From positions 1 to 48,461 of the forward strand of contig NZ_JALLGL010000009.1 in NCBI RefSeq assembly GCF_023072675.1: a stretch of DNA of 48,461 nucleotides, read 5' to 3'. Below are positions 16,548 to 41,995 of the stretch, piece by piece; within the stretch, counting starts at the first letter, position 1, and each line of letters opens with the position of its first letter. Under the pieces are notes generated by a model. That model saw only the letters and a program-made list of their open reading frames with translations, did not search any database and had not been told where the DNA came from. This stretch comes from Streptomyces sp. XM83C. GTDB lineage: Bacteria > Actinomycetota > Actinomycetes > Streptomycetales > Streptomycetaceae. Both the position numbers and the translations under genes were made by a program.

Positions 16548-17519
16548 ATGAGCGAACTTTTCGGCACACTTTCCGATCGCACCCCGGTCCACCGGTGGAC
16601 GCTGGAGCGCGCGGGCGTGCGCGTGCGGGTGCTGTCGTACGGCGGGATCGTGCAGTCGGTCGAGGTCCCGGACCGGGAGGGCGCCACGGGCGATGTGGTG
16701 CTGGGTTTCCCGGACCTGGCGGGTTATCTCGCGCACCCGGGGCCGTTCCTCGGCGCGCTGGTGGGGCGGTACGCCAACCGGATCGGGGGCGCCCGCTTCA
16801 CGCTGGACGGGCGGACGTACGAGCTCGCCGCGATCGACGGGCCGAACTCGCTGCACGGCGGCCCGCGCGGTTTCGACAAGCGTGTGTGGAACGTCGAGCC
16901 GGTCGAGCACGGCCTGCGTCTGACGCGGGTCTCCCGCGACGGAGAGGAGGGCTTCCCGGGCCGCCTGGAGGTCTCCGCGACGTACACCCTGGACGAGTCC
17001 GGGGCGCTGCATCTGGCGTACGAGGCGGTCACGGACGCGCCGACCGTCGTGAACCTCACCAACCACAGCTATTTCAATCTGTCGGGCGGCGGGCACGCGG
17101 GCGGGCACGAGCTGCGGCTGGCGGCATCCCGCTACACGCCGGTCGACGAGGTGCTGATCCCGCGGGGCGAACCGGCGGACGTCACGGGCACCCGCTTCGA
17201 CTTCCGCACGCCCCGCAAGACGGGCTCCGGCTACGACCACAACTTCGTGCTGGACAAGGGCGTCACCGACCGTCCGGAGCACGTGGCGGAGCTGTACGAC
17301 CCGGCGTCCGGGCGGGTGTTGACGGTGGCGACGACCGAGCCTGGCCTTCAGCTGTACACGGGCGACCATCTGGGTGAGCCGTTCGTGCCCAACGAGGGGG
17401 TGGCGCTGGAGACCCAGCACTTCCCGGACTCCCCCAACCGGCCGGACTTCCCGTCGACGGTGCTCCGGCCGGGCGAGGTGTACCGCTCGGAGACGGTGTA
17501 CGGCTTCTCGGTGCGGTGA
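16548..17519 (+). CDS. aldose 1-epimerase (galactose mutarotase), cytosolic
   Basis: Interconverts alpha and beta anomers of aldoses. It has 323 residues with family motifs: LGALVGRYANRIGGARFTLDG, SLHGGPRGFDKRVW, the catalytic His in NLTNHSYFNLSG and the catalytic Glu in ALETQHFPDSPN. No signal peptide, so it acts in the cytosol, unlike its exported paralogue at 35871-37031. The ATG 16548 start has no ribosome site but has a -10 box 7 bases upstream, so a leaderless mRNA is likely. Confidence 0.93.
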   Translation: MSELFGTLSDRTPVHRWTLERAGVRVRVLSYGGIVQSVEVPDREGATGDVVLGFPDLAGYLAHPGPFLGALVGRYANRIGGARFTLDGRTYELAAIDGPNSLHGGPRGFDKRVWNVEPVEHGLRLTRVSRDGEEGFPGRLEVSATYTLDESGALHLAYEAVTDAPTVVNLTNHSYFNLSGGGHAGGHELRLAASRYTPVDEVLIPRGEPADVTGTRFDFRTPRKTGSGYDHNFVLDKGVTDRPEHVAELYDPASGRVLTVATTEPGLQLYTGDHLGEPFVPNEGVALETQHFPDSPNRPDFPSTVLRPGEVYRSETVYGFSVR

Positions 17520-28081: not shown

Positions 28082-28363
28082 GACGCGGGAAGACTAAGTT
28101 CCGCCTCGGCGACCTGCCTAGAGACCGCTGTGAAAGTTGTGTGGGAGAGCGCGTGTCGGGCTGCGCCAAGCCGGGCCATCGGCACCCATCCCGGCCGCAC
28201 CGGCGCGAAAGCGGCGTACGAAGGACGGTCGTCGAAAACTGCCGAAAGCAACCCGTGCGGCACCCATTGACACGTCCCGCGCCCCGTCCTTACTGTCACG
28301 CCAGCATTTCGAACGTGTGACGAAATTTCGAACACAGCCGACGTTCACGAGGGGTCGAACAGC
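28082..28363 (+). promoter_or_regulatory. promoter and double operator of the sugar-acid operon
   Basis: -35 TTGACA (28267-28272), 19-base spacer, -10 TACTGT (28292-28297). Just downstream are two ATTTCGAAC repeats (28306-28314 and 28325-28333). The second overlaps a perfect palindrome CGAAATTTCG (28321-28330). ATTTCG (28306-28311) and CGAAAT (28321-28326) also form an inverted repeat. The same palindrome core recurs at 30683-30692 and 42404-42413. Position downstream of the -10 suggests repression. Confidence 0.7.
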
Positions 28364-29530
28364 GTGCGCATCACCGGAATCAGCACACACGTGGTCGGGA
28401 CGCCCTGGCGGAACCTGACCTACGTGCTGGTGCACACCGACGAGGGGATCTCGGGAGTCGGCGAGACCCGGATGCTCGGTCACACCGACGCTCTGCTCGG
28501 CTATCTGAAGGAAGCCGAGGTCAACCACATTCTCGGCAGCGACCCGTTCGCTGTCGAGGATCTGGTGCGCCGGATGAAGTACGGGGACTACGGGCGGGCC
28601 GGCGAGATCGTGATGTCCGGTGTCGCCGTCGTCGAGATGGCCTGCTGGGACATCAAGGGCAAGGCGCTCGGCGTGCCGGTGTGGCAGCTGCTCGGCGGCA
28701 AGGTCACCGACAGGGTGAAGGCGTACGCCAACGGCTGGTACACCACCGAGCGGACCCCGGAGGCGTACCACAAGGCGGCCCGCGCGGTCATGGAGCGCGG
28801 CTACCGCGCGCTGAAGATCGACCCCTTCGGCACCGGCCATTTCGAGCTGGACCAGCAGCAGACCCTGTACGCGGTCTCCCTCATCGAGGCCGTACGGGAC
28901 GCGATCGGCCCCGACGCCGAGCTGATGCTGGAGATGCACGGCCGCTTCTCCCCCGCCACCGCCGTACGGCTCGCGAAGGAGCTGGCGCCGTTCCGGCCCG
29001 CCTGGCTGGAGGAGCCGGTGCCGCCGGAGAACCTGAAGGCACTCGAGAAGGTGGCCGCCAAGGTGGACGTCCCGGTCGCCACGGGCGAGCGCATCCACGA
29101 CCGGATCGAGTTCCGCGAGCTGTTCGAGAGCCAGGCCGCGGACATCCTCCAGCCGGACGTCGGCCACATCGGCGGCATCTGGGAGACCCGCAAGCTCGCC
29201 GCGACCGCCGAGACCCACTACATGCTCGTCGCCCCGCACAACGTGGGCGGCCCGGTGCTCACCGCCGCCAGCCTCCAGGTCGGGTTCACCTCCCCCAACT
29301 TCAAGGTGCTCGAGCATTTCAACGACTTCGCGGACGCCGAGATCAAGAAGGTCGTGAAGGGCGCCCCGCAGGTGGACCCGGAGGACGGCTGCTTCCATCT
29401 GTCCGACGCGCCCGGCCTCGGTGTCGAGCTGGACGTGGACGCCGCCGCCGAGTTCCCGCAGCAGCGCGCCCACTTCGATCTGTGGGCCGAGGGCTGGGAG
29501 AAGCGCAAGCCGAAGGAGGGCGGCGCATGA
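28364..29530 (+). CDS. enolase-superfamily sugar-acid dehydratase (MR/MLE type)
   Basis: A 388-residue member of the mandelate racemase/muconate lactonising group; these remove a proton alpha to a carboxylate, here probably to dehydrate an aldonic acid. Visible residues: K151-I-D153 (KxD base motif), metal ligand E190 with E-M-H192 resembling the D-x-H of galactonate/gluconate dehydratases, E216/E217 (WLEEP), E242 (GER), D265 (LQPDVGHIGG) and H292 (APHN). The substrate cannot be fixed from sequence. GTG 28364 follows GAGGGG. It overlaps the alcohol dehydrogenase gene by ATGA, so the two are co-translated. Confidence 0.9.
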   Translation: MRITGISTHVVGTPWRNLTYVLVHTDEGISGVGETRMLGHTDALLGYLKEAEVNHILGSDPFAVEDLVRRMKYGDYGRAGEIVMSGVAVVEMACWDIKGKALGVPVWQLLGGKVTDRVKAYANGWYTTERTPEAYHKAARAVMERGYRALKIDPFGTGHFELDQQQTLYAVSLIEAVRDAIGPDAELMLEMHGRFSPATAVRLAKELAPFRPAWLEEPVPPENLKALEKVAAKVDVPVATGERIHDRIEFRELFESQAADILQPDVGHIGGIWETRKLAATAETHYMLVAPHNVGGPVLTAASLQVGFTSPNFKVLEHFNDFADAEIKKVVKGAPQVDPEDGCFHLSDAPGLGVELDVDAAAEFPQQRAHFDLWAEGWEKRKPKEGGA

Positions 29531-30679: not shown

Positions 30680-30695
30680 GTCCGATATATCGAAC
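30680..30695 (+). promoter_or_regulatory. operator palindrome of the sugar regulon
   Basis: The core CGATATATCG (30683-30692) is a perfect palindrome; with flanks, GTCCGATATATCGAAC is a 16-bp palindrome with one mismatch. It lies 85 bases upstream of GTG 30781, inside the 249-base gap that otherwise holds only a terminator hairpin. It matches the sites at 28321-28330 and 42404-42413. Confidence 0.65.
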
Positions 30696-30780
30696 ACCAG
30701 GGGTCCCGGCCTCTCGGCCGCCCGGGTCTCTCCTCCCGTCGGACCGTCAGCCCCGGCCCCCAGGACTCTAAGGACAGCTT

Positions 30781-31749
30781 GTGACCGACCCCTCCGCCCC
30801 GGCACCCCGACGACCCGGCGAGCAGGCACTCGCCGCGCTCGGTCTCGACGCTCCTCCGCCGGACCCCGCCGACGCCTCGCCGCACACCTTCCCGGGCGGC
30901 GGGCGCTGGCGCACCGAGATCCCCTCCTGCGAGGGCCCGGAGGCGCTCGCGGTGGTGCTGAAGGAATCCGCCCGGCTCGATGTGCCGATCCACCGGATCA
31001 GCCAGGGCAGCGGCGTGTGGATGCTCACCGACGCCGAGATCACCGAGATGGTCGAGGCCACCGCCGAACGCGACATCGAACTGTGTCTGTTCACCGGGCC
31101 GCGCGGCACCTGGGACATCGGCGGCTCGGTGCGCACCGACTCGCGGGGGGCCGGACTGCGCGCCCGTGGTCATGACGCCGTCGCCGGGTGCGTCGAGGAC
31201 GCCGTGCGCGCGACCGAGCTGGGTGTGAAGTGCCTGCTCGTCGCCGACGAGGGCGTGCTGTGGACGCTGCACCGGGCACGCGCCGAGGGCGTCCTGCCCG
31301 CCGACACCACCCTGAAGGTGTCCGCACTGATCGGGCCGGTCAACCCGGCGAGCTACGCGGTGTACGAGCGGCTCGGCGCGGACTCGATCAATGTGCCGAG
31401 CGATCTGACCCTGGACCACCTCACGGAGATCCGCCGGGTGTCGGCCGCCCCGATGGACATGTACATCGAGGCGCCGGACGACCTCGGCGGCTATGTGCGG
31501 ATGTACGAGGTGGCCGAGCTGATCCGGCGCGGGGCGCCGCTGTATCTGAAGTTCGGCCTGTCGAAGGCCCCCGGCATCTACCCGTACGGCCACCACCTGC
31601 GGGAGCTGACCCTGGCCACCGCGAAGGAGCGGGTGCGGCGGGGCCGGCTGGCGCTGGACCTGCTGGCCCGGCACGGCGCCGACGGCGACATGGCGCCGCC
31701 CGGGACACGGCTGCCGGGCACCCTGCGCCGCTTCGAAACACGTTCATAA
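30781..31749 (+). CDS. U32-peptidase-like TIM-barrel protein, function unknown
   Basis: A 322-residue cytosolic protein. From memory such proteins are labelled U32 family peptidase in Streptomyces sugar clusters, but the classical U32 motifs are not evident. The order of barrel-like strands ([59 protein letters not shown]) fits a TIM barrel with acidic and lysine residues at strand ends. Its place between sugar-acid enzymes and a sugar transporter suggests a carbohydrate enzyme, perhaps a lyase or aldolase (inference). GTG 30781 follows AAGGA. Confidence 0.72.
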
Positions 31750-31882
31750 AGTTTCCGACACACCTCTTCACAGAAGCCGACGCAGTCCAACAGAATCCCA
31801 CACACCTGCTCGGCCGAGTTCACCCCGCAGCGTCACCCGCACCGCCCGATCGAGCCGTGCGCCTACATCGAGGATGATGATC

Positions 31883-32989
31883 ATGCGCAATCGCAGAGCT
31901 GCTCTCGCCGCCATAGCCGGAGCCGTCTCCCTCGCTCTCTCCCTGACCGCGTGCGGCCAGGACAGCGAGGGCGGAAGCAAGGAGGACAAGGGGTCCGCCA
32001 AGGGCGGCACCATCGGCATCGCGATGCCGACGAAATCCTCCGAACGCTGGATCGCCGACGGCAACAACGTCAAGAAGGACCTGGAGTCCAAGGGCTACAA
32101 GACCAAGCTGGTGTACGGGGAGGACGACCCCGACCAGCAGGTCTCCCAGATCGAGAACCTGATCACCCAGGGCGTCAAGGCGCTCATCGTCGCCGCCATC
32201 GACAACAAGTCCCTCAACAACGTCCTCCAGCAGGCCAAGGACGCGGGCATCCCGGTCATCGCGTACGACCGGCTGATCCTCGGCACGCCCGACGTGGACT
32301 ACTACGCGTCCTTCGACAACGAGAAGGTCGGCCGGCTCCAGGCCACGTACATCGTCGACAAGCTCGGCCTGGAGAGCGGCAAGGGCCCGTTCAACATCGA
32401 GCTGTTCGCCGGCTCCAACGACGACAACAACACCAAGTACTTCTTCAACGGCGCGATGAGCGTGCTGAAGCCGTACATCGACAGCAAGAAGCTCGTCGTG
32501 CGCTCCGGCCAGACCGAGCTGACCCAGGTCACCACGCTGCGCTGGGACGGTGCCACCGCCCAGCGGCGCATGGACGACATCCTCACCAAGTCGTACAAGA
32601 GCGCCCGCGTCGACGCGGTCCTCTCCCCGTACGACGGCATCTCCATCGGTGTGCTGTCCGCGCTGAAGTCCGACGGCTACGGCTCCGGCGACAAGCCGCT
32701 GCCCGTGCTGACCGGGCAGGACGCGGAGCTGGCCTCCGTGAAGTCGATCATCGCCGGGGAGCAGACCCAGACCGTCTACAAGGACACCCGCGAACTCGCC
32801 AAGGTCGCCTCGAACATGGTGGACGCCGTCCTCAACGGCAAGAAGCCCGAGGTGAACGACACCAAGACGTACGACAACGGCTCCAAGGTCGTCCCGTCCT
32901 ACCTGCTTCAGCCGGTCAGCGTCGACAAGACCAACTACGAGAAGGTCCTGGTCGAGGGCGGCTACTACACCGCGGACCAGCTCAAGTAA
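31883..32989 (+). CDS. chvE: monosaccharide ABC transporter substrate-binding lipoprotein (ChvE type)
   Basis: A 368-residue periplasmic-binding-type lipoprotein: signal peptide with lipobox LTAC (Cys24), then a type I binding fold ([83 protein letters not shown]). It is ChvE-like; relatives bind arabinose, galactose, xylose or glucose. ATG 31883 is preferred over ATG 31874 and 31877 because GAGG (31870-31873) is 9 bases upstream. First gene of chvE-gguA-gguB, transcribed from the 133-base gap after the U32-like gene. Confidence 0.93.
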
Positions 32990-33022: not shown

Positions 33023-34573
33023 ATGGCGGGACCCGTCCTGGAAATGCGCTCGATCGTCAAGACCTTTCCCGGTGTCAAGGCGCTGTCGGACGTCACCCTG
33101 ACCGTCCGTCAGGGCGAGGTCCACGCCATCTGCGGGGAGAACGGCGCCGGCAAGTCCACCCTGATGAAGGTGCTGTCCGGCGTCCATCCGCACGGCAGCT
33201 ACGAGGGCGAGATCCTCTTCGACGGAGAGGTCTGCCGGTTCAAGGACATCCGCGCGAGCGAGGAACGCGGCATCGTGATCATCCATCAGGAGCTGGCCCT
33301 CGTGCCGTTCCTGTCGATCGCGGAGAACATCTTCCTCGGCAACGAACACGCCCGGCGCGGCTTCATCGACTGGAACGACACCCTGCGGCACGCCACCGAA
33401 CTGCTGCGCCGCGTCGGTCTCGACGAGCACCCCGAGACCCGCGTCGCCGACATCGGTGTCGGCAAACAGCAGCTCGTGGAGATCGCCAAGGCGCTGTCGA
33501 AGAAGGTGAGGCTGCTCATCCTCGACGAGCCGACCGCGGCGCTCAACGACGAGGACAGCGGCAAACTCCTCGATCTGATCCTTCAGTTGAAGGACCAGGG
33601 CATCACCTCGATCATCATCTCCCACAAACTCAACGAGATCCGCAGGGTCGCCGACTCCGTCACGATCATCCGCGACGGCCGGTCCATCGAGACCCTCGAT
33701 GTGAAGGCGCCGGAGACCACCGAGGACCGCATCATCAGCGGCATGGTCGGCCGGGACCTCGACAACCGCTTCCCCGACCGCACCCCGCACCACGCGGAGG
33801 ACGGCGCCGCCCCGGCGCTGGAGATCCGCAACTGGACCGTCCTCCACCCCATCGACCAGCAGCGCAAGGTCGTCGACGATGTGTCGATCGAGGTGCGCCG
33901 CGGGGAGATCGTCGGCATCGCCGGGCTGATGGGCGCCGGCCGCACCGAACTCGCGATGAGCGTCTTCGGCCGCACCTACGGCCGGTACGCGGGCGGCACG
34001 GTCCTCAAGGACGGCAAGGAGATCCGCACCCGTACCGTCGCCGAGGCGGTCGGGCACGGCATCGCGTACGTCACCGAGGACCGCAAGCACTACGGCCTCA
34101 ACCTCATCGACACCATCAACCGGAACATCTCCCTGACCGCGCTGTCCAAGGTCGCGCGCCGCGGGATCGTCGACGAGCACGAGGAACGGCAGGTCGCCGA
34201 GGAGTTCCGCACCTCCATGAACATCAAGGCGCCGACCGTCTTCGAACCGGTCGGCAAGCTGTCCGGCGGCAACCAGCAGAAGGTCGTCCTCAGCAAGTGG
34301 ATCTTCGCCGGGCCGGATGTGCTGATCCTCGACGAACCCACGCGCGGCATCGATGTCGGCGCCAAGTACGAGATCTACACGGTCATCGACCGGCTCGCCG
34401 CCGAGGGCAAGGCGGTCGTCTTCATCTCCTCCGAACTGCCCGAGCTGCTCGGCATGTGCGACCGGATCTACACCATGGCCGCCGGGCGGCTCACCGGCGA
34501 GGTCCCGCGGGCCGAGGCCACGCAGGAAGTGCTGATGCGTCAGATGACCAAGGACAAAGAGGTAACGCGATGA
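33023..34573 (+). CDS. gguA: sugar ABC transporter ATP-binding protein (GguA type)
   Basis: A 516-residue tandem ATPase energising sugar import. The first domain has a full Walker A (GENGAGKST) and Walker B (LLILDEPT) with a degenerate signature ([15 protein letters not shown]). The second has a degenerate Walker A (GLMGAGRTE), canonical signature (LSGGNQQKV) and Walker B ([14 protein letters not shown]). This asymmetry is normal for the CUT2 family. ATG 33023 follows GGAAGG. Its stop overlaps the permease start (ATGA at 34570). Confidence 0.95.
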
Positions 34574-35814
34574 GCACCGAAGTGACCAAGAGCCCGGCCG
34601 CCGCACCGCCGGGCGCCGGCGGCGGCGACACCGACGGCCGGGGCCTGCCGGCGCTGGTGATCGACGGGCTGCGCCGCAACATGCGCCAGTACGGCATGCT
34701 GCTCGCCCTCGGCCTGATCGTCGCCGTGTTCGCGGTGTGGACCGACGGAGATCTGCTGCTGCCGCGCAACGTCTCCAACCTGGTCCTGCAGAACAGCTAT
34801 GTGCTGATCCTCGCGATCGGCATGATGCTGGTGATCATCGCCGGGCACATCGATCTGTCCGTCGGCTCGGTCACCGCCTTTACCGGCGCGTTCGCGGCCG
34901 TGCTCACCGTGCAGCACGGGGTGCCCTGGCCGGTCGCGTTCGTGCTGTGCCTGCTGGCGGGCGCGGCGGCCGGCGCGGCGCAGGGCTTCTTCATCGCGTA
35001 TCTCGGCATACCGTCGTTCATCGTCACCCTCGCCGGCATGCTGATCTTCCGCGGGTTCACGGAGATCCTGCTGGAGGGGCAGACCCTCGGCCCGTTCCCG
35101 AACGGGTTGCAGAAGATGGGCAACGGCTTCCTGCCGGAGGTCGGCCCGCACACCAACTACCACAACCTCACCCTGCTGCTGGGTCTCGCGCTGATCGTCT
35201 TCGCGGTCCTCCAGGAGGTCCGCGACCGCAGGCGGCAGCGGGAGTTCTCGCTGGACGTCGTGCCGCTCAACCTGTTCCTGCTCAAGCTGGTGTCGATCGT
35301 CGCCGCGATCCTCGTGGTCACGCTGCTCCTCGCCAGCTACAAGGGCGCCCCGATCGTCCTGCTGATCCTGGGCGCGCTGGTCGTCGGCTACGGCTACGTC
35401 ATGCGCAACTCGGTGTTCGGACGGCACATCTACGCGATCGGCGGCAACCTGCCGGCGGCGAAGCTGTCCGGTGTGAAGGACAAGAAGGTCACCTTCTTCG
35501 TCTTCCTGAACATGGGCGCGCTCGCGGCCCTGGCGGGACTGGCGATCGCCGCCCGCCTGAACGCGGCCTCGCCGAAGGCCGGCCTGAACTACGAACTCGA
35601 GGCGATCGCCTCGTCGTTCATCGGCGGCGCGTCCATGAGCGGCGGTGTCGGCACCGTCCTCGGCGCGATCATCGGCGGCCTCGTCCTCGGTGTGCTGAAC
35701 AACGGCATGAACCTCCTCAGCGTCGGCACCGACTGGCAGCAGGTCATCAAGGGCCTCGCCCTGCTGGCCGCGGTCGGGTTCGACGTGTGGAACAAGCGCA
35801 AGTCCGGTTCGTAA
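34570..35814 (+). CDS. gguB: sugar ABC transporter permease (GguB type)
   Basis: A 414-residue permease of the CUT2 family with about ten hydrophobic helices, the family motif [13 protein letters not shown] near residue 95 and the C-terminal [25 protein letters not shown]. An unusually hydrophilic loop (~215-230, [10 protein letters not shown]) lies mid-protein, as in GguB/MmsB relatives. Co-translated with gguA. Together with ChvE it imports a monosaccharide, likely an aldopentose or aldohexose. Confidence 0.95.
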
Positions 35815-35870: not shown

Positions 35871-37031
35871 ATGGAACTGAACAGACGCACCGTCCTCGCA
35901 TCGGCAGCGGCGGCGGGCCTCGCCGCGACGGCGCTCGGCGGCACCGCCGAGGCCGCTCCCGCGTCGGGGAAGGGAAGGAAGCCCGTGAAGGAGCTGTTCG
36001 GCACGCTCGCCGACGGGACGAAGGTGCACCGCTGGTCGCTGGAGAACGGCGGCACCCGGCTGAAGGTGCTCTCGTACGGCGGCATCGTGCAGTCCCTGGA
36101 GATCCCCGACCGGCACGGCCGGTACGCCAACGTCTCCGCCGGCTTCGACAACCTGGACGACTATGTGGCGTCCAGCCCGTACTTCGGCGCGCTGATCGGC
36201 CGCTACGGCAACCGCATCGGCAAGGGCCGCTTCACCCTCGACGGCAGGACGTACCAGCTGTCCGTCAACGACGGCGACAACAGCCTGCACGGCGGGGCGA
36301 AGGGCTTCGACAAGCGGGTGTGGGACGTGGAGCCGTTCACGCACGGCAGCGACGTGGGGCTGCGCCTGCACCACGTCAGCGTGGACGGCGAGATGGGCTA
36401 CCCGGGCACGCTGCGCGTCACGGTGACGTACACGCTGACCCGGCACGGCGACTGGATCATCGACTACGAGGCCACCACCGACAAGGCCACCGTCGTCAAC
36501 CTGACCAGCCACGTCTACTGGAACCTCGGCGGTGAGGGCAGCGGCGGCATCGAGGACCACGAGCTGCGGATCGCGGCCTCCCGGTACACGCCCACCGACA
36601 GCGGCCTGATCCCGACGGGCGAGCTGGCGAAGGTCGCCGGGACACCGTTCGACTTCCGGCGTGCCAAGCCCGTCGGACGGGACATCCGCGCCGGGCATCC
36701 GCAGCAGATCCTCGCCCAGGGCTTCGACCACAACTGGGTGCTGGACAAGGGCATCACGGCCCGGCCCGAGCACGCGGCGACGCTGCGCGACCCGTCCTCC
36801 GGCCGCACCCTGAGCATCGCCACCAACGAGCCCGGCCTCCAGTTCTACTCGGGCAACTTCCTCGACGGCACCCTCACCGGCACGAGCGGCCGGGTCTACC
36901 GGCAGGGCGACGCGCTGTGCCTGGAGACGCAGCACTTCCCGGACTCGCCGAACCAGCCGTCGTTCCCGTCGACGGTGCTGCGGCCGGGGCAGGTGTACCG
37001 GACGCGGACCGTGCACTCCTTCGATGCCTGA
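35871..37031 (+). CDS. aldose 1-epimerase, Tat-exported
   Basis: A 386-residue secreted mutarotase. The twin-arginine signal (LNRRTVLASAAAAGLAATAL, Arg5-Arg6) ends near AEAAPA. Mature motifs: FGALIGRYGNRIGKGRF, SLHGGAKGFDKRVW, catalytic His in NLTSHVYWNLGG and catalytic Glu in CLETQHFPDSPN. It would set the anomer of a sugar outside the cell before uptake by the ChvE-type transporter directly upstream. ATG 35871 follows AGGAG. It is a paralogue of the cytosolic enzyme at 16548-17519. Confidence 0.94.
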   Translation: MELNRRTVLASAAAAGLAATALGGTAEAAPASGKGRKPVKELFGTLADGTKVHRWSLENGGTRLKVLSYGGIVQSLEIPDRHGRYANVSAGFDNLDDYVASSPYFGALIGRYGNRIGKGRFTLDGRTYQLSVNDGDNSLHGGAKGFDKRVWDVEPFTHGSDVGLRLHHVSVDGEMGYPGTLRVTVTYTLTRHGDWIIDYEATTDKATVVNLTSHVYWNLGGEGSGGIEDHELRIAASRYTPTDSGLIPTGELAKVAGTPFDFRRAKPVGRDIRAGHPQQILAQGFDHNWVLDKGITARPEHAATLRDPSSGRTLSIATNEPGLQFYSGNFLDGTLTGTSGRVYRQGDALCLETQHFPDSPNQPSFPSTVLRPGQVYRTRTVHSFDA

Positions 37032-37142: not shown

Positions 37143-38765
37143 TTGGCCGGAAACGTCACCTCGCTCTTCCGCAGCACCGCGGCGCACAGCCCGTCGATGG
37201 CTTCGCTGACCAGGGAGAGCGGCGACGGTTCCGGCCCGGTCGACTTCTGCATCCCCTGCAACCCGTACTTCCCCACCCCGGCGATGTTCGACGAGATGGC
37301 GGCGCGGCTGCGGGAGATCGTCACGTACTACCCGAGCAGCGCCGAGACCATCACGGCCGAGCTGTGCGGTCTGCTGCACCTTCCGGCGCAGTGCGTGGCG
37401 ATGGGCAACGGCTCCACGGAGCTGATCACCTGGATCGACCATCTGCTGGTCCGTGAGTCCCTCGCCGTGCCGGTGCCGACGTTCGGGCGGTGGACGGACC
37501 AGCCGATGGAGACCGGCAAGCGGGTGGACATGTTCCCGTTGCAGGAGGCCAACGGGTTCGCCCTCGACCTGGCGCAGTACGCCGAGTTCGTACGGGTGCG
37601 CGGCACCCGCACGGTGGTGATCTGCAACCCGAACAACCCCGACGGCGGCTATCAGCGCAAGCAGGCGGTCGTGCAGTTCATGGACGCGATGGCCGACCGG
37701 GACCTCGTCGTGATCGACGAGAGCTTCCTGGAGTTCGCGGACGCCGAGCAGGACACGTCGGTGGTGCAGGAGGCGATGGTGCGGCCGAACGTGATCGTGC
37801 TGCGCAGCCTCGGAAAGAACTTCGGCCTGCACGGCATCCGCTTCGGCTATCTGGTGGCGAACCCGGCACTGGCCCGGCGGGTGCGCTCCATGCTGCCGAA
37901 GTGGAACCTCAACTCCTTCGCCGAGCATGTGGTGTTCATGTTGAAGGAGCACGGCGCGGAGTACGCGCAGAGTCTGACGCAGGTGCGCCGGGACCGTCTG
38001 GAGATGGCGAGCCGGCTGTCGGAGCTGCCCGGCCTGACCGTCTATCCCTCGCAGGGGAACTTCCTCTTCGTGCGTCTGCCCGTGGGCGCCGAGGGCACCG
38101 TGGTGCGGGACCGGCTGCTCACCGAGCACCGGATCCTGGTCCGCGAGTGCGGCAACAAGATCGGTTCGTCCAGTCGCTTCCTGCGTCTCGTGGTACGCCC
38201 CCAGGTGGACGTGCGTCGCCTGGTGTCCGGCCTGGAACAGGTGCTCTACGGGACGTCCAGGAGGGGAGCCGCCGTACCCGAGCCGGGCAACGGGACCAGC
38301 TACAGCTCGGGTACGGCGGCGGTGGACCGGCTGGTGAGCGCGACGAACGGGGCGGGGATCGCGGCGGTGACGGCGGGGGCGCCGCAGCCGCAGCCGCTGC
38401 CGCAGGTGGCGCCGGGCTCCGCGCCCGCGGCACCGGCGGCAGCCGCCAGGCCCGCGCCCGCACCCGCACCCGCACCCGCACCCGCACCCGCACCGGCCCC
38501 TGCCCCCGCACCGGCTCCCGCTCCGGCGCCGGTGCCGGTGCCGAGCCCCGCTCCGGCGCCGATGCCGCAGCCGGTGCCCGCCGCGGCGGGGCTGACACCG
38601 CCGGGGCTGACACCGCCGGGGCTGACACCGCCGGGGGTCCCGGCGCGCGGAGGGCTCACGGCCGCGCAGGTGCGGGGCACCAATGGGCTGACCCCGGCCC
38701 CGGCGACGGGCTGGCCGAGCCCGGGCATGTGGCCGAATGCGGCCGGTATGGAGCAGGCGGGATAG
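37143..38765 (+). CDS. PLP-dependent class I aminotransferase with long Ala/Pro tail
   Basis: A 540-residue protein. Residues 1-~385 are a fold-type I PLP enzyme resembling histidinol-phosphate aminotransferase and threonine-phosphate decarboxylase: GNGSTELI (88-95), CNPNNPDGG (161-169), Asp192 (VIDESFLEF) and the Schiff-base Lys225 (RSLGKNFGLHGIRFGY). Residues ~390-540 are low complexity: an (AP)n run encoded by a 6-base repeat, then three perfect GLTPP units. Start TTG 37143 follows CGGAGG; no ATG or GTG fits, since the upstream extension crosses the terminator. The substrate is unknown. Confidence 0.85.
   Translation: MAGNVTSLFRSTAAHSPSMASLTRESGDGSGPVDFCIPCNPYFPTPAMFDEMAARLREIVTYYPSSAETITAELCGLLHLPAQCVAMGNGSTELITWIDHLLVRESLAVPVPTFGRWTDQPMETGKRVDMFPLQEANGFALDLAQYAEFVRVRGTRTVVICNPNNPDGGYQRKQAVVQFMDAMADRDLVVIDESFLEFADAEQDTSVVQEAMVRPNVIVLRSLGKNFGLHGIRFGYLVANPALARRVRSMLPKWNLNSFAEHVVFMLKEHGAEYAQSLTQVRRDRLEMASRLSELPGLTVYPSQGNFLFVRLPVGAEGTVVRDRLLTEHRILVRECGNKIGSSSRFLRLVVRPQVDVRRLVSGLEQVLYGTSRRGAAVPEPGNGTSYSSGTAAVDRLVSATNGAGIAAVTAGAPQPQPLPQVAPGSAPAAPAAAARPAPAPAPAPAPAPAPAPAPAPAPAPAPVPVPSPAPAPMPQPVPAAAGLTPPGLTPPGLTPPGVPARGGLTAAQVRGTNGLTPAPATGWPSPGMWPNAAGMEQAG
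38455..38635 (+). repeat. in-gene 6-bp and 15-bp tandem repeats
   Basis: A CCCGCA-type hexamer is repeated at about 38455-38492 (Ala-Pro codons, decaying to 38540). A 15-base unit GCTGACACCGCCGGG occurs in three perfect copies at 38591-38605, 38606-38620 and 38621-38635 (Leu-Thr-Pro-Pro-Gly). Both keep the reading frame, so tail length can vary by slippage without breaking the gene. Confidence 0.85.
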
Positions 38766-40489: not shown

Positions 40490-41995
40490 TCAGGCGAGGC
40501 GGATCACGTTCCAGGACAGCGGCTCCAGTACGGCGGTGAGCCGCCCGTCCTCGACGCGGGTGCCGTCGACCGGGTGCGGGGCCACCCGGTCGGGCTGGGC
40601 GAGGGTGTTGCGGGCGTCCGGGTCGGCGTCGGAGAGGGCGCTGTGCTCGGTGACGCGGGTCAGGTCGAGGCCGTTCAGGGCCACCTCCAGGGGCAGGGCC
40701 TCGGCGCGGCTGCGGTTGACGGCGAACACGGTGACCGTGCCGTCGTCGGCGCGGACGGCGGTGGCGTGCAGCAGGTCGGCCTCGCCGTACTTCTCCGTCT
40801 CGTACACCGGCGAGTCCACGCGCACGTCCAACACCTCGCCGCGGCCGTGCTTCGAGGCCTGGGCGAAGGGGAAGAACGTGGTCTGCCGCCAGGCGGGGCC
40901 GCCGGGCTCGGTCGTGATCGGGGCGATGACGTTGACGAGCTGGGCGAGGCAGGCGACGGTCACGCGGTCGGCGTGCCGGAGCAGCGCGATCAGCAGGGAG
41001 CCGAGGACGACGGCGTCGGTGACGGTGTAGTTGTCCTCCAGCAGGCGCGGGGCCTCGGGCCAGTCGAGGACGCTGACCTGGTCGTGGGTGCGGGACATGT
41101 ACCAGACGTTCCACTCGTCGAAGGAGAGGTTGATCTTCTTCTTCGACTTCAGGCGGGCGCCGACGTGGTCGCAGGTGGCGACGACGTTCTCGATGAAGGA
41201 CTCCATGTCGACGGCGGACGCGAGGAAGGAGTCGGCGTCGGTGGCGGAGGGGTCGTAGTAGGCGTGCAGGGAGATGTAGTCGACGAGGTCGTAGGTCTCG
41301 GCGAGGACCTTCGCCTCCCATTCGGCGAAGGTGGGCATGGACTGGGTGGAGCTGCCGCAGGCGACGAGTTCGATGCCGTTGTCGATCTGGCGCATGGCGC
41401 GGGCGGTCTCGGCGGCGAGCCGGCCGTACTCCTCGGCGGTCTTGTGGCCGGTCTGCCAGGGGCCGTCCATCTCGTTGCCGAGGCACCACAGGCGGATGCC
41501 GAAGGGGTCCTTGTCGCCGTGGGCGACGCGCAGGTCCGACAGGGCGGTGCCGGAGGGGTGGTTGGCGTACTCCTGGAGTTCCAGGGCCTCGGCGACACCT
41601 CGGGTGCCGAGGTTGATCGCCATCATGGGTTCGGCCTGCGGGCCGAGCTTCTTCAGGAAGGCGATGTACTCGGACAGGCCGAAGCGGTTGGTCTCCGTGG
41701 AGCGCCAGGCGAGGTCGAGCCGGCGCGGGCGGGACTCGACGGGGCCGACGGAGTCCTCCCACTTGTAGCCGGAGACGAAGTTGCCGCCGGGGTAGCGGAT
41801 CGTGGTGACGCCGAGTTCGCGGATCAGGTCGAGCACGTCCTGACGCAGGCCGGCCTCGTCGGCGGTGGGGTGGCCGGGCTCGAAGATGCCGGTGTAGACG
41901 CAGCGGCCGAGGTGTTCGACGAAGGAGCCGAACAGGCGGGGGTTCACTCGGGCGACGGTGAAGGCGGGGTCCAGGGTGAAGCGGGCGGTGCGCAT
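40490..41995 (-). CDS. GH51 alpha-L-arabinofuranosidase
   Basis: A 501-residue retaining enzyme that removes alpha-L-arabinofuranosyl groups from arabinan and arabinoxylan fragments. Catalytic acid/base Glu175 (LWCLGNEMDGPW) and nucleophile Glu294 (NLSFDEWNVW); GH51 N-terminus (FVEHLGRCVYTGIFEPGHP) and C-terminal beta domain ending LEPLSWNVIRLA. No signal peptide, so it is probably intracellular. ATG 41995 follows GGAAGGA; the frame is open upstream to 42454 but crosses the operator and a separate small ORF. Predicted member of the same regulon as the dehydratase operon. Confidence 0.94.
   Translation of the reverse strand: MRTARFTLDPAFTVARVNPRLFGSFVEHLGRCVYTGIFEPGHPTADEAGLRQDVLDLIRELGVTTIRYPGGNFVSGYKWEDSVGPVESRPRRLDLAWRSTETNRFGLSEYIAFLKKLGPQAEPMMAINLGTRGVAEALELQEYANHPSGTALSDLRVAHGDKDPFGIRLWCLGNEMDGPWQTGHKTAEEYGRLAAETARAMRQIDNGIELVACGSSTQSMPTFAEWEAKVLAETYDLVDYISLHAYYDPSATDADSFLASAVDMESFIENVVATCDHVGARLKSKKKINLSFDEWNVWYMSRTHDQVSVLDWPEAPRLLEDNYTVTDAVVLGSLLIALLRHADRVTVACLAQLVNVIAPITTEPGGPAWRQTTFFPFAQASKHGRGEVLDVRVDSPVYETEKYGEADLLHATAVRADDGTVTVFAVNRSRAEALPLEVALNGLDLTRVTEHSALSDADPDARNTLAQPDRVAPHPVDGTRVEDGRLTAVLEPLSWNVIRLA

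Follow-up and report, generated by a model that had tools for sequence, protein, structure and literature searches.

Dehydratases that act on L-KDP or on 2-keto-3-deoxy-L-arabinonate (L-KDA) belong to the DHDPS family, according to three reports (PMC7374468, PMC9795676, PMC13398020), and the D-KDP dehydratases are assigned to the FAH family in two of them (PMC7374468, PMC9795676). The window analysed here, a stretch of 48,461 nucleotides from Streptomyces sp. XM83C (contig NZ_JALLGL010000009.1, positions 1 to 48,461), encodes a U32-like TIM-barrel protein at 30781-31749. With the DHDPS-family L-2-keto-3-deoxyarabonate dehydratase (EC 4.2.1.43; Azospirillum, PDB 3FKK) this protein shares the proposed substrate and product, the slot in the gene cluster and the TIM barrel, but it differs in having no match to PF00701 and in the position of its fixed lysines. 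The FAH-family D-2-keto-3-deoxypentonate dehydratase (XylX/KdaD type) catalyses an analogous reaction on the other stereoisomer and comes from a different protein family. KDG/KDPG and HpcH/HpaI aldolases likewise combine a TIM barrel with 2-keto-3-deoxy acid substrates, but the U32-like protein has no Pfam or NCBIfam match to them.

With the described U32 proteins (TrhP, RlhA, UbiU, UbiV) there is homology over strands 4 to 7, and the U32-like protein differs from them by the lack of a Cys pair and by its sugar-regulon context. In TrhP, the cysteines C170 and C177 are essential (PMC6599085). Among the matches listed in a search of titles and abstract starts in open PubMed Central, a scope short of proving absence, there was no U32 protein with a role in sugar catabolism; the available part of the main text of PMC6336799 does not mention U32.

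Gene organization and operator sites

The U32-like gene lies between genes for sugar-acid enzymes and a monosaccharide importer, as the original prediction had pointed out. The features of the locus are the following.

28321-28334, minus strand: operator site TGTTCGAAATTTCG, upstream of the dehydratase gene; site in 80/80 relatives
28364-29530, plus strand: enolase-superfamily sugar-acid dehydratase, galactonate-dehydratase-like, proposed L-arabinonate dehydratase; Pfam MR_MLE_C 227 bits
29527-30531, plus strand: Zn-dependent medium-chain dehydrogenase, proposed L-arabinose 1-dehydrogenase; Pfam ADH_N / ADH_zinc_N
30683-30696, minus strand: operator site TGTTCGATATATCG, upstream of the U32-like gene; site in 78/80 relatives
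30781-31749, plus strand: U32-like TIM-barrel protein, 322 aa, GTG start
31874-32989, plus strand: ChvE-type multiple-monosaccharide ABC substrate-binding protein; NCBIfam NF040907 557.5 bits, cut-off 460
33023-34573, plus strand: GguA-type ABC ATPase; NCBIfam NF040905 881.6 bits, cut-off 810; start from the gene-calling model
34570-35814, plus strand: importer permease in the GguB position; Pfam BPD_transp_2 134.8 bits; order kept in 77/80 relatives
35871-37031, plus strand: aldose 1-epimerase closing the importer run; Pfam Aldose_epim 317.9 bits; same order in 77/80 relatives
40490-41995, minus strand: alpha-L-arabinofuranosidase, GH51-like; Pfam Alpha-L-AF_C 170.9 bits
42400-42413, plus strand: third operator site TGTTCGATATTTCG, 405 bases upstream of the arabinofuranosidase gene

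The dehydratase scores 293 bits against the NCBIfam galactonate dehydratase model, below its cut-off of 311, and its stop is overlapped by the start of the Zn-dehydrogenase gene. Conservation was assessed in a close-relative set comprising the best 80 of 480 loci that encode a relative, all from Streptomyces and at least 89% identical. The order dehydratase, dehydrogenase, U32-like gene is kept in 80/80 of these loci, and the ChvE-type binding protein comes next in 78/80, the remaining two ending there with the contig.

The further prediction that the U32-like gene carries its own copy of the regulon operator is borne out by the site at 30683 and by its conservation. When the 80 close relatives were scanned for sites with at most two mismatches to CGAWATWTCGAAC, from 200 bases upstream to 30 bases inside each gene, such sites were found at the dehydratase in 80/80, at the U32-like gene in 78/80 and at the binding protein in 32/78, and at the dehydrogenase (0/80) and the epimerase (0/77) in none; the numbers expected from Markov-resampled sequence range from 0.2 to 1.7 across genes, with 0.2 for the U32-like gene. 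Counting the exact palindrome only, 36/80 U32-like genes are preceded by it. Without mismatch, TGTTCGAWATWTCG is present in three copies in the 6.8 Mb assembly, all of them within the window (28321, 30683, 42400). A fourth operator-like site with one mismatch, located on contig C80, was taken as a chance occurrence because no sugar gene was recognised by eye nearby.

In some close relatives a LacI-type gene is found close to the operator site; a search of the window itself revealed no regulator gene. The loci L182, L183 and L184 each have a homologue of that gene (52-56% identical) in divergent orientation to the U32-like run, and L185 has no such divergent gene; none of L181 and L182-L185 contains the exact palindrome.

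Several other features of the regulon and its surroundings are recorded here. Following the importer run, the window encodes a class I/II aminotransferase-like protein whose tail is a long Pro-Ala repeat (37197-38765), recognised in 76/80 relatives, and a second aldose 1-epimerase-like gene, identified by eye, is placed at 16548-17519, remote from the operator sites. In some Streptomyces (L022, L028, L053 and L067), the genes just upstream of the dehydratase encode another importer, whose binding protein looks furanose-type by eye and which has a LacI gene to itself, and exact operator palindromes occur in the stretch upstream of the dehydratase in L028, L053, L054, L067 and L080. There is a hint in this that the regulon also imports arabinofuranose.

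Family assignment, fold and conserved residues

The U32-like gene (30781-31749) is genuine, and it is conserved. Its open reading frame was recognised by a gene-calling model of codon usage for which the window and four relatives served as training set, and the protein is the sole match at E up to 1 within its own 6.8 Mb assembly. Against Pfam PF01136 the window protein scores 17.5 bits, the curated cut-off being 22.4; scores above that cut-off were obtained for L114 (29.1 bits), L138 (25.3), L145 (24.1) and L139 (23.0), and L140 is below it (21.2). At E up to 0.1, PF01136 is matched by 20/20 aligned members, window included, with 9.1e-10 as the best value. Profile-profile comparison by hhalign with UbiU/UbiV/TrhP/RlhA of E. 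coli gave a probability of 96% (E 2.5e-9) over residues 131-230 only, and the PF01136-related homology is confined to strands 4 to 7. As judged from these comparisons, the barrel core is in part homologous to U32 proteins, and the protein apparently represents an undescribed branch of the U32 TIM-barrel superfamily. Two AlphaFold models of moderate confidence (mean pLDDT 60 and 65) show eight beta strands alternating with helices, in agreement with the U32-like TIM barrel originally proposed.

Searches for other affiliations were negative. A Pfam scan at E up to 1 returned PF01136 alone, with neither DHDPS (PF00701) nor FAA_hydrolase, and at the same threshold Pfam and NCBIfam gave no match to the DHDPS, KDPG or HpcH aldolase families. 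Sequence searches of the PDB produced no significant relative, and of 47 pattern matches on viral contigs none is a relative. The fold comparison suggested by the original prediction was carried out with the two models and brought no decision between families: in the Foldseek and VIA-align lists, class II aldolases appear alongside DHDPS, U32, pyruvate kinase and other proteins, and many unrelated TIM barrels reach comparable scores. The U32 protein 5d88 is found at Foldseek rank 31 and 3fkk at rank 50, among many TIM barrels; a confident match to a peptidase active site did not emerge. Fold searches cannot separate the lyase families.

In an alignment of 74 rows (68 from the sugar clade, 6 outgroup), in which the clade of the window forms a single group with full support, 20 of the 47 positions examined are invariant in 68/68 sugar-clade rows: Phe104, Gly130, Asp156, Gly158, Lys179, Ser181, Asn188, Asn204, Asp208, Arg218, Asp226, Tyr228, Glu230, Asp233, Gly236, Arg240, Lys257, Pro268, Gly270 and Glu283. 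The strand-end Lys, Asp and Glu residues emphasized in the original prediction are among them. In the secondary structure of the AlphaFold models, Lys179 lies on strand 5 and Lys257 on strand 8, Asp156 is placed just past strand 4 and Glu230 at the end of strand 7, whereas the catalytic lysine of DHDPS enzymes is found on strand 6. The six outgroup rows retain Glu46, Arg72, Asp156, Lys179, Ser181, Asn188, Asp208 and Lys257; the SQGSG stretch is absent from all six, and Glu230 is retained there only in L200 and L201.

In the hhalign register, the position of the essential Glu162 of TrhP corresponds to Asp226. The sequence match to U32 proteins stops short of the Cys region, and the TrhP residues C170 and C177 were placed at positions 234 and 241 by extrapolating the register gap-free beyond the matched stretch. 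None of the 74 rows has Cys in these extrapolated columns, nor is there a conserved Cys column anywhere in the 74 rows, the fullest being position 102 with Cys in 28/74.

Gene neighbourhoods across the family

Neighbourhoods were surveyed in 67 loci (the window and 66 others, with L179 omitted for want of a called U32-like gene), counting genes within ten called genes. Labels were assigned with HMMs built on seeds named by eye, most of them checked by example with Pfam or NCBIfam; L113, L141 and L145 are themselves seeds of the SMP-30 HMM. Many of the loci are cut by contig ends and loci of one genus are not independent, and the counts are to be read with that in mind: a dehydrogenase is present in 42, a lactonase candidate in 31 and a semialdehyde-dehydrogenase type in 21. 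A sugar-acid dehydratase of the enolase or IlvD/EDD type is found in 44/67 loci, a common co-occurrence by which, together with the missing Cys pair, a sugar role is well supported over a peptidase role, and 23/67 have no recognised dehydratase nearby. Neither of the two outcomes named in the original prediction as refuting it, a confident peptidase active-site match or a lack of co-occurrence with the dehydratase, was encountered. In 18 cases an enolase-type dehydratase gene lies at most 30 bases from the U32-like gene and on its strand, and in 4 cases an IlvD gene does; standing beside two dehydratase families, the U32-like gene evidently tracks the pathway and not one dehydratase family.

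The remaining classes are smaller: a FAH-type D-series dehydratase in 12, another FAH protein in 9, an aldolase-family gene in 13, a DHDPS-family gene in 4, an enolase paralogue in 11 and an arabinan or arabinofuranoside hydrolase in 8 of the 67 loci, the window included in the last. Arabinan-type operons with a U32-like gene are seen in L186, L187, L188, L190, L192 and L193 (with the GH43 and arabinofuranosidase domains verified for L186 and L190), and homologues of the window's alpha-L-arabinofuranosidase lie near the U32-like gene in L187, L190, L192 and L193. The dehydratase next to the U32-like gene of L114 shares 58.5% identity with that of the window, and the FAH-side dehydratase 37%. 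On these identities, a D-series (xylose) counterpart is a natural interpretation of the FAH-type genes that accompany some U32-like genes, with two stereo-series side by side. Where the FAH, aldolase or DHDPS genes serve the same sugar, if they do, the U32-like protein would be dispensable for the step. L176 combines dehydrogenase, SMP-30, IlvD and semialdehyde-dehydrogenase type with one such DHDPS-family gene.

Other settings were also encountered. Actinobacteria of small genome size (assemblies of 1.2-1.8 Mb) have consecutive genes for a U32-like protein, an SDR, an APH-type kinase and an enolase paralogue (L162:9903-13789, Pfam checked; L163, L164, L165, L169-L172, L174, L175). A divergent U32-like gene in L200:7716-10596 and L201:7309-10252 belongs to an operon that also encodes acetaldehyde dehydrogenase and 4-hydroxy-2-oxovalerate aldolase (over the NCBIfam cut-off in L200), and this outgroup member possibly has a hydratase or related role. 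In three AT-rich genomes of one genus (L142, Pfam checked; L143, L144), a divergent U32-like gene directly follows panB; that both settings involve 4-hydroxy-2-keto acids is suggestive only. On the Enterobacter chuandaensis plasmid pE20191216 (L138, 79936-92173), a relative 33% identical over 79% of the query has surroundings that resemble a biosynthetic cluster, with an aminotransferase, a 2-hydroxyacid-dehydrogenase-like gene, two iron-containing redox enzymes and an MFS transporter.

Proposed function and alternatives

The assignment of a reaction is built mainly on four genomes (L182-L185), in which the U32-like protein, the dehydratase, the Zn-dehydrogenase, an aldehyde dehydrogenase and an SMP-30 lactonase are encoded in one same-strand run (SMP-30 checked via Pfam SGL in L182 and L185). 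The dehydratases there are 68-69% identical to that of the window; the window's Zn-dehydrogenase is 53-58% identical to its homologue in L183-L185 and 50% over 169 aa in L182, where the gene is called only in part (169 aa). With the other four of five steps accounted for in these runs, the unfilled slot is the conversion of L-KDA to the semialdehyde.

The identity of the aldehyde dehydrogenase is of relevance here. The enzyme falls into the 'aldehyde dehydrogenase (NADP+)' family (PDB 1eyy, 3v4c), and none of five enzymes searched had an NCBIfam family at E 1e-40. According to plasmid records, the same family adjoins 5-dehydro-4-deoxyglucarate dehydratase in Rhizobium, in a run that also has an annotated L-arabinonate dehydratase; it is located by glucarate-type genes in Rhodococcus and among hydroxyproline-type genes in Citricoccus; and in Azospirillum a member accompanies a cluster of ChvE/GguA, SMP-30, DHDPS-family protein and dehydrogenase. 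Pathways of these types yield alpha-ketoglutarate semialdehyde. The label of semialdehyde dehydrogenase for the L182-type enzyme is one we presume from context and from the Azospirillum isozymes. In Azospirillum the slot is held by a DHDPS-family protein, and the U32-like protein thus sits where a DHDPS-type enzyme sits elsewhere.

We consider it reasonably probable that the U32-like protein is an L-KDA dehydratase of a new family, functioning in a Weimberg-type pathway of L-arabinose; the gene context is what suggests the step. Further points in favour are the arabinan-type operons, the lower frequency of AraA in genomes with the U32-like gene, and the operon of the outgroup members L200 and L201 as another 4-hydroxy-2-keto acid setting. 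In such an oxidative, non-phosphorylative route, L-arabinose would be taken in by the ChvE/GguAB importer and oxidised to the lactone by the Zn-dehydrogenase. The lactone would be opened to L-arabinonate, no lactonase being seen in the window locus, and L-arabinonate would be dehydrated to L-KDA by the enolase-type enzyme. The U32-like protein would then strip the C4 hydroxyl from L-KDA to give alpha-ketoglutarate semialdehyde, possibly with Lys179 or Lys257 and Asp156/Glu230 as catalysts, through a Schiff base or by acid/base catalysis. Oxidation to alpha-ketoglutarate may fall to a semialdehyde dehydrogenase encoded on contig C153, the one close member of the aldehyde dehydrogenase family in the genome (51% identical to that of L182). 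Of the full pathway set, the window has the dehydrogenase and the arabinonate dehydratase as adjacent partners, with the C153 gene as candidate for the last step. Other genes of this genome are more distant: matches to a semialdehyde dehydrogenase of the L112 type are 42% or less, three of four PF00701 genes are 25-31% identical to the DHDPS protein of Azospirillum and the fourth is without match, and FAH-type matches are 35-36%, the better one being placed, by eye, among aromatic-degradation genes.

The main rival is an aldolase of the Dahms type, cleaving L-KDA or a related 2-keto-3-deoxy acid into pyruvate and glycolaldehyde, the latter to be oxidised by the neighbouring aldehyde dehydrogenase. 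The operons of L182-L185 are equally compatible with it; two lysines are invariant; no further aldolase or dehydratase for the 2-keto-3-deoxy acid is recognised at the window locus; and class II aldolases come first when the second model is compared with known structures (Z 15.0 at rank 1, 12.7 at rank 50), but many unrelated TIM barrels give similar scores. The aldehyde dehydrogenase family of L182-L185, however, accompanies routes that make alpha-ketoglutarate semialdehyde, and HpcH-type aldolase genes near the U32-like gene in L119, L122, L124 and L125 would render a second aldolase redundant. On balance we regard the aldolase as unlikely. The original prediction, a lyase or aldolase step on a 2-keto-3-deoxy acid, is therefore supported only in part: its lyase component fits, the evidence favouring a dehydratase, which is also a lyase, but the reaction is derived from context, the fold comparison is undecisive, and a FAH gene in 12/67 and an aldolase gene in 13/67 loci complicate the picture.

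Less likely again is a role further upstream, in a step that both branches share, for example as a pentonolactonase, a lactone isomerase or an epimerase of sugars or sugar acids. It would account for the occurrence of the U32-like gene with both Weimberg-like and aldolase-like downstream genes, for L186, where it is the only catabolic enzyme in the gene run apart from the glycosidases, and for the 36/67 loci, the window's included, in which no lactonase candidate lies within ten genes. In L182-L185, however, the missing step is not that of a lactonase, and the role is made less likely by the SMP-30 or metallo-beta-lactamase-fold candidates found nearby in 31/67 loci (among them L141, L145, L176 and L181-L185), including two in the window's own clade, L141 (an S. 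nigrescens plasmid) and L181, with an SMP-30 gene near the same genes.

We judge it improbable that the protein acts on another metabolite of the regulon (e.g., in by-product repair), or on a hexose-derived 2-keto-3-deoxy acid in other clades, with members differing in reaction. L166, with its hexose-like setting of PfkB kinase and KDPG-type aldolase, the 11 enolase-paralogue loci, the panB-adjoining genes and the Enterobacter relative among aminotransferase and redox-enzyme genes all point in that direction, but the 20 positions invariant throughout the sugar clade argue for one chemistry there. Family members may nevertheless differ in substrate, and for the loci with SDR, APH-type kinase and enolase paralogue the L-KDA dehydratase reading gives no explanation. 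A canonical U32 function, as peptidase or as RNA/ubiquinone hydroxylase, consistent with the PF01136 and hhalign matches and with the rank of 5d88, is rejected as highly improbable because the Cys pair is missing (in the extrapolated register) and the gene context is sugar catabolism, where the dehydratases and arabinan or arabinofuranoside hydrolases nearby agree with the poor fit to a peptidase noted originally.

Distribution and implications

With the window protein as query, relatives were detected in 34/346 genomes across the phylum and in 169/246 sampled genomes of the genus; with the L114 protein as query, in 15/39 genomes of the order of G041 and 69/394 of the window's class. Plasmid records contain five matches in all, one of them in Thermomicrobium roseum, where its neighbours are an enolase-type dehydratase, an MBL-fold protein and a sugar importer. 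In the genus sample, counting four lower-similarity U32 matches (G358, G381, G454, G514) as positive and one AraA match below cut-off (G563) as negative, AraA is over cut-off in 20/169 U32-positive compared to 20/77 U32-negative genomes (Fisher p = 0.008, kinship ignored). An AraA match over cut-off is thus missing from 149/169 U32-positive genomes, and the U32-like gene is therefore common where the isomerase route is absent; the window's own genome has no AraA match. The use of L-arabinose is a classical taxonomic test in Streptomyces.

A wider generalization is offered tentatively, as a possibility we hold to be rather doubtful at present: the U32-like family might constitute a third, independent solution to the C4 dehydration of 2-keto-3-deoxy-L-pentonates, evolved from the U32 barrel minus its Cys pair, and more broadly a group of 2-keto-4-hydroxy-acid (de)hydratases, with the outgroup on 4-hydroxy-2-oxovalerate routes. 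It would explain the use of L-arabinose by many AraA-less Streptomyces.

The L-KDA dehydratase reading, if true, would provide a metabolic function for a widespread branch now labelled 'U32 family peptidase' and would reveal the recruitment of the U32 barrel for sugar chemistry. For Streptomyces and other Actinomycetota it would close the gap in an oxidative L-arabinose route, and it would supply a non-homologous biocatalyst for the preparation of alpha-ketoglutarate semialdehyde from hemicellulose sugars.
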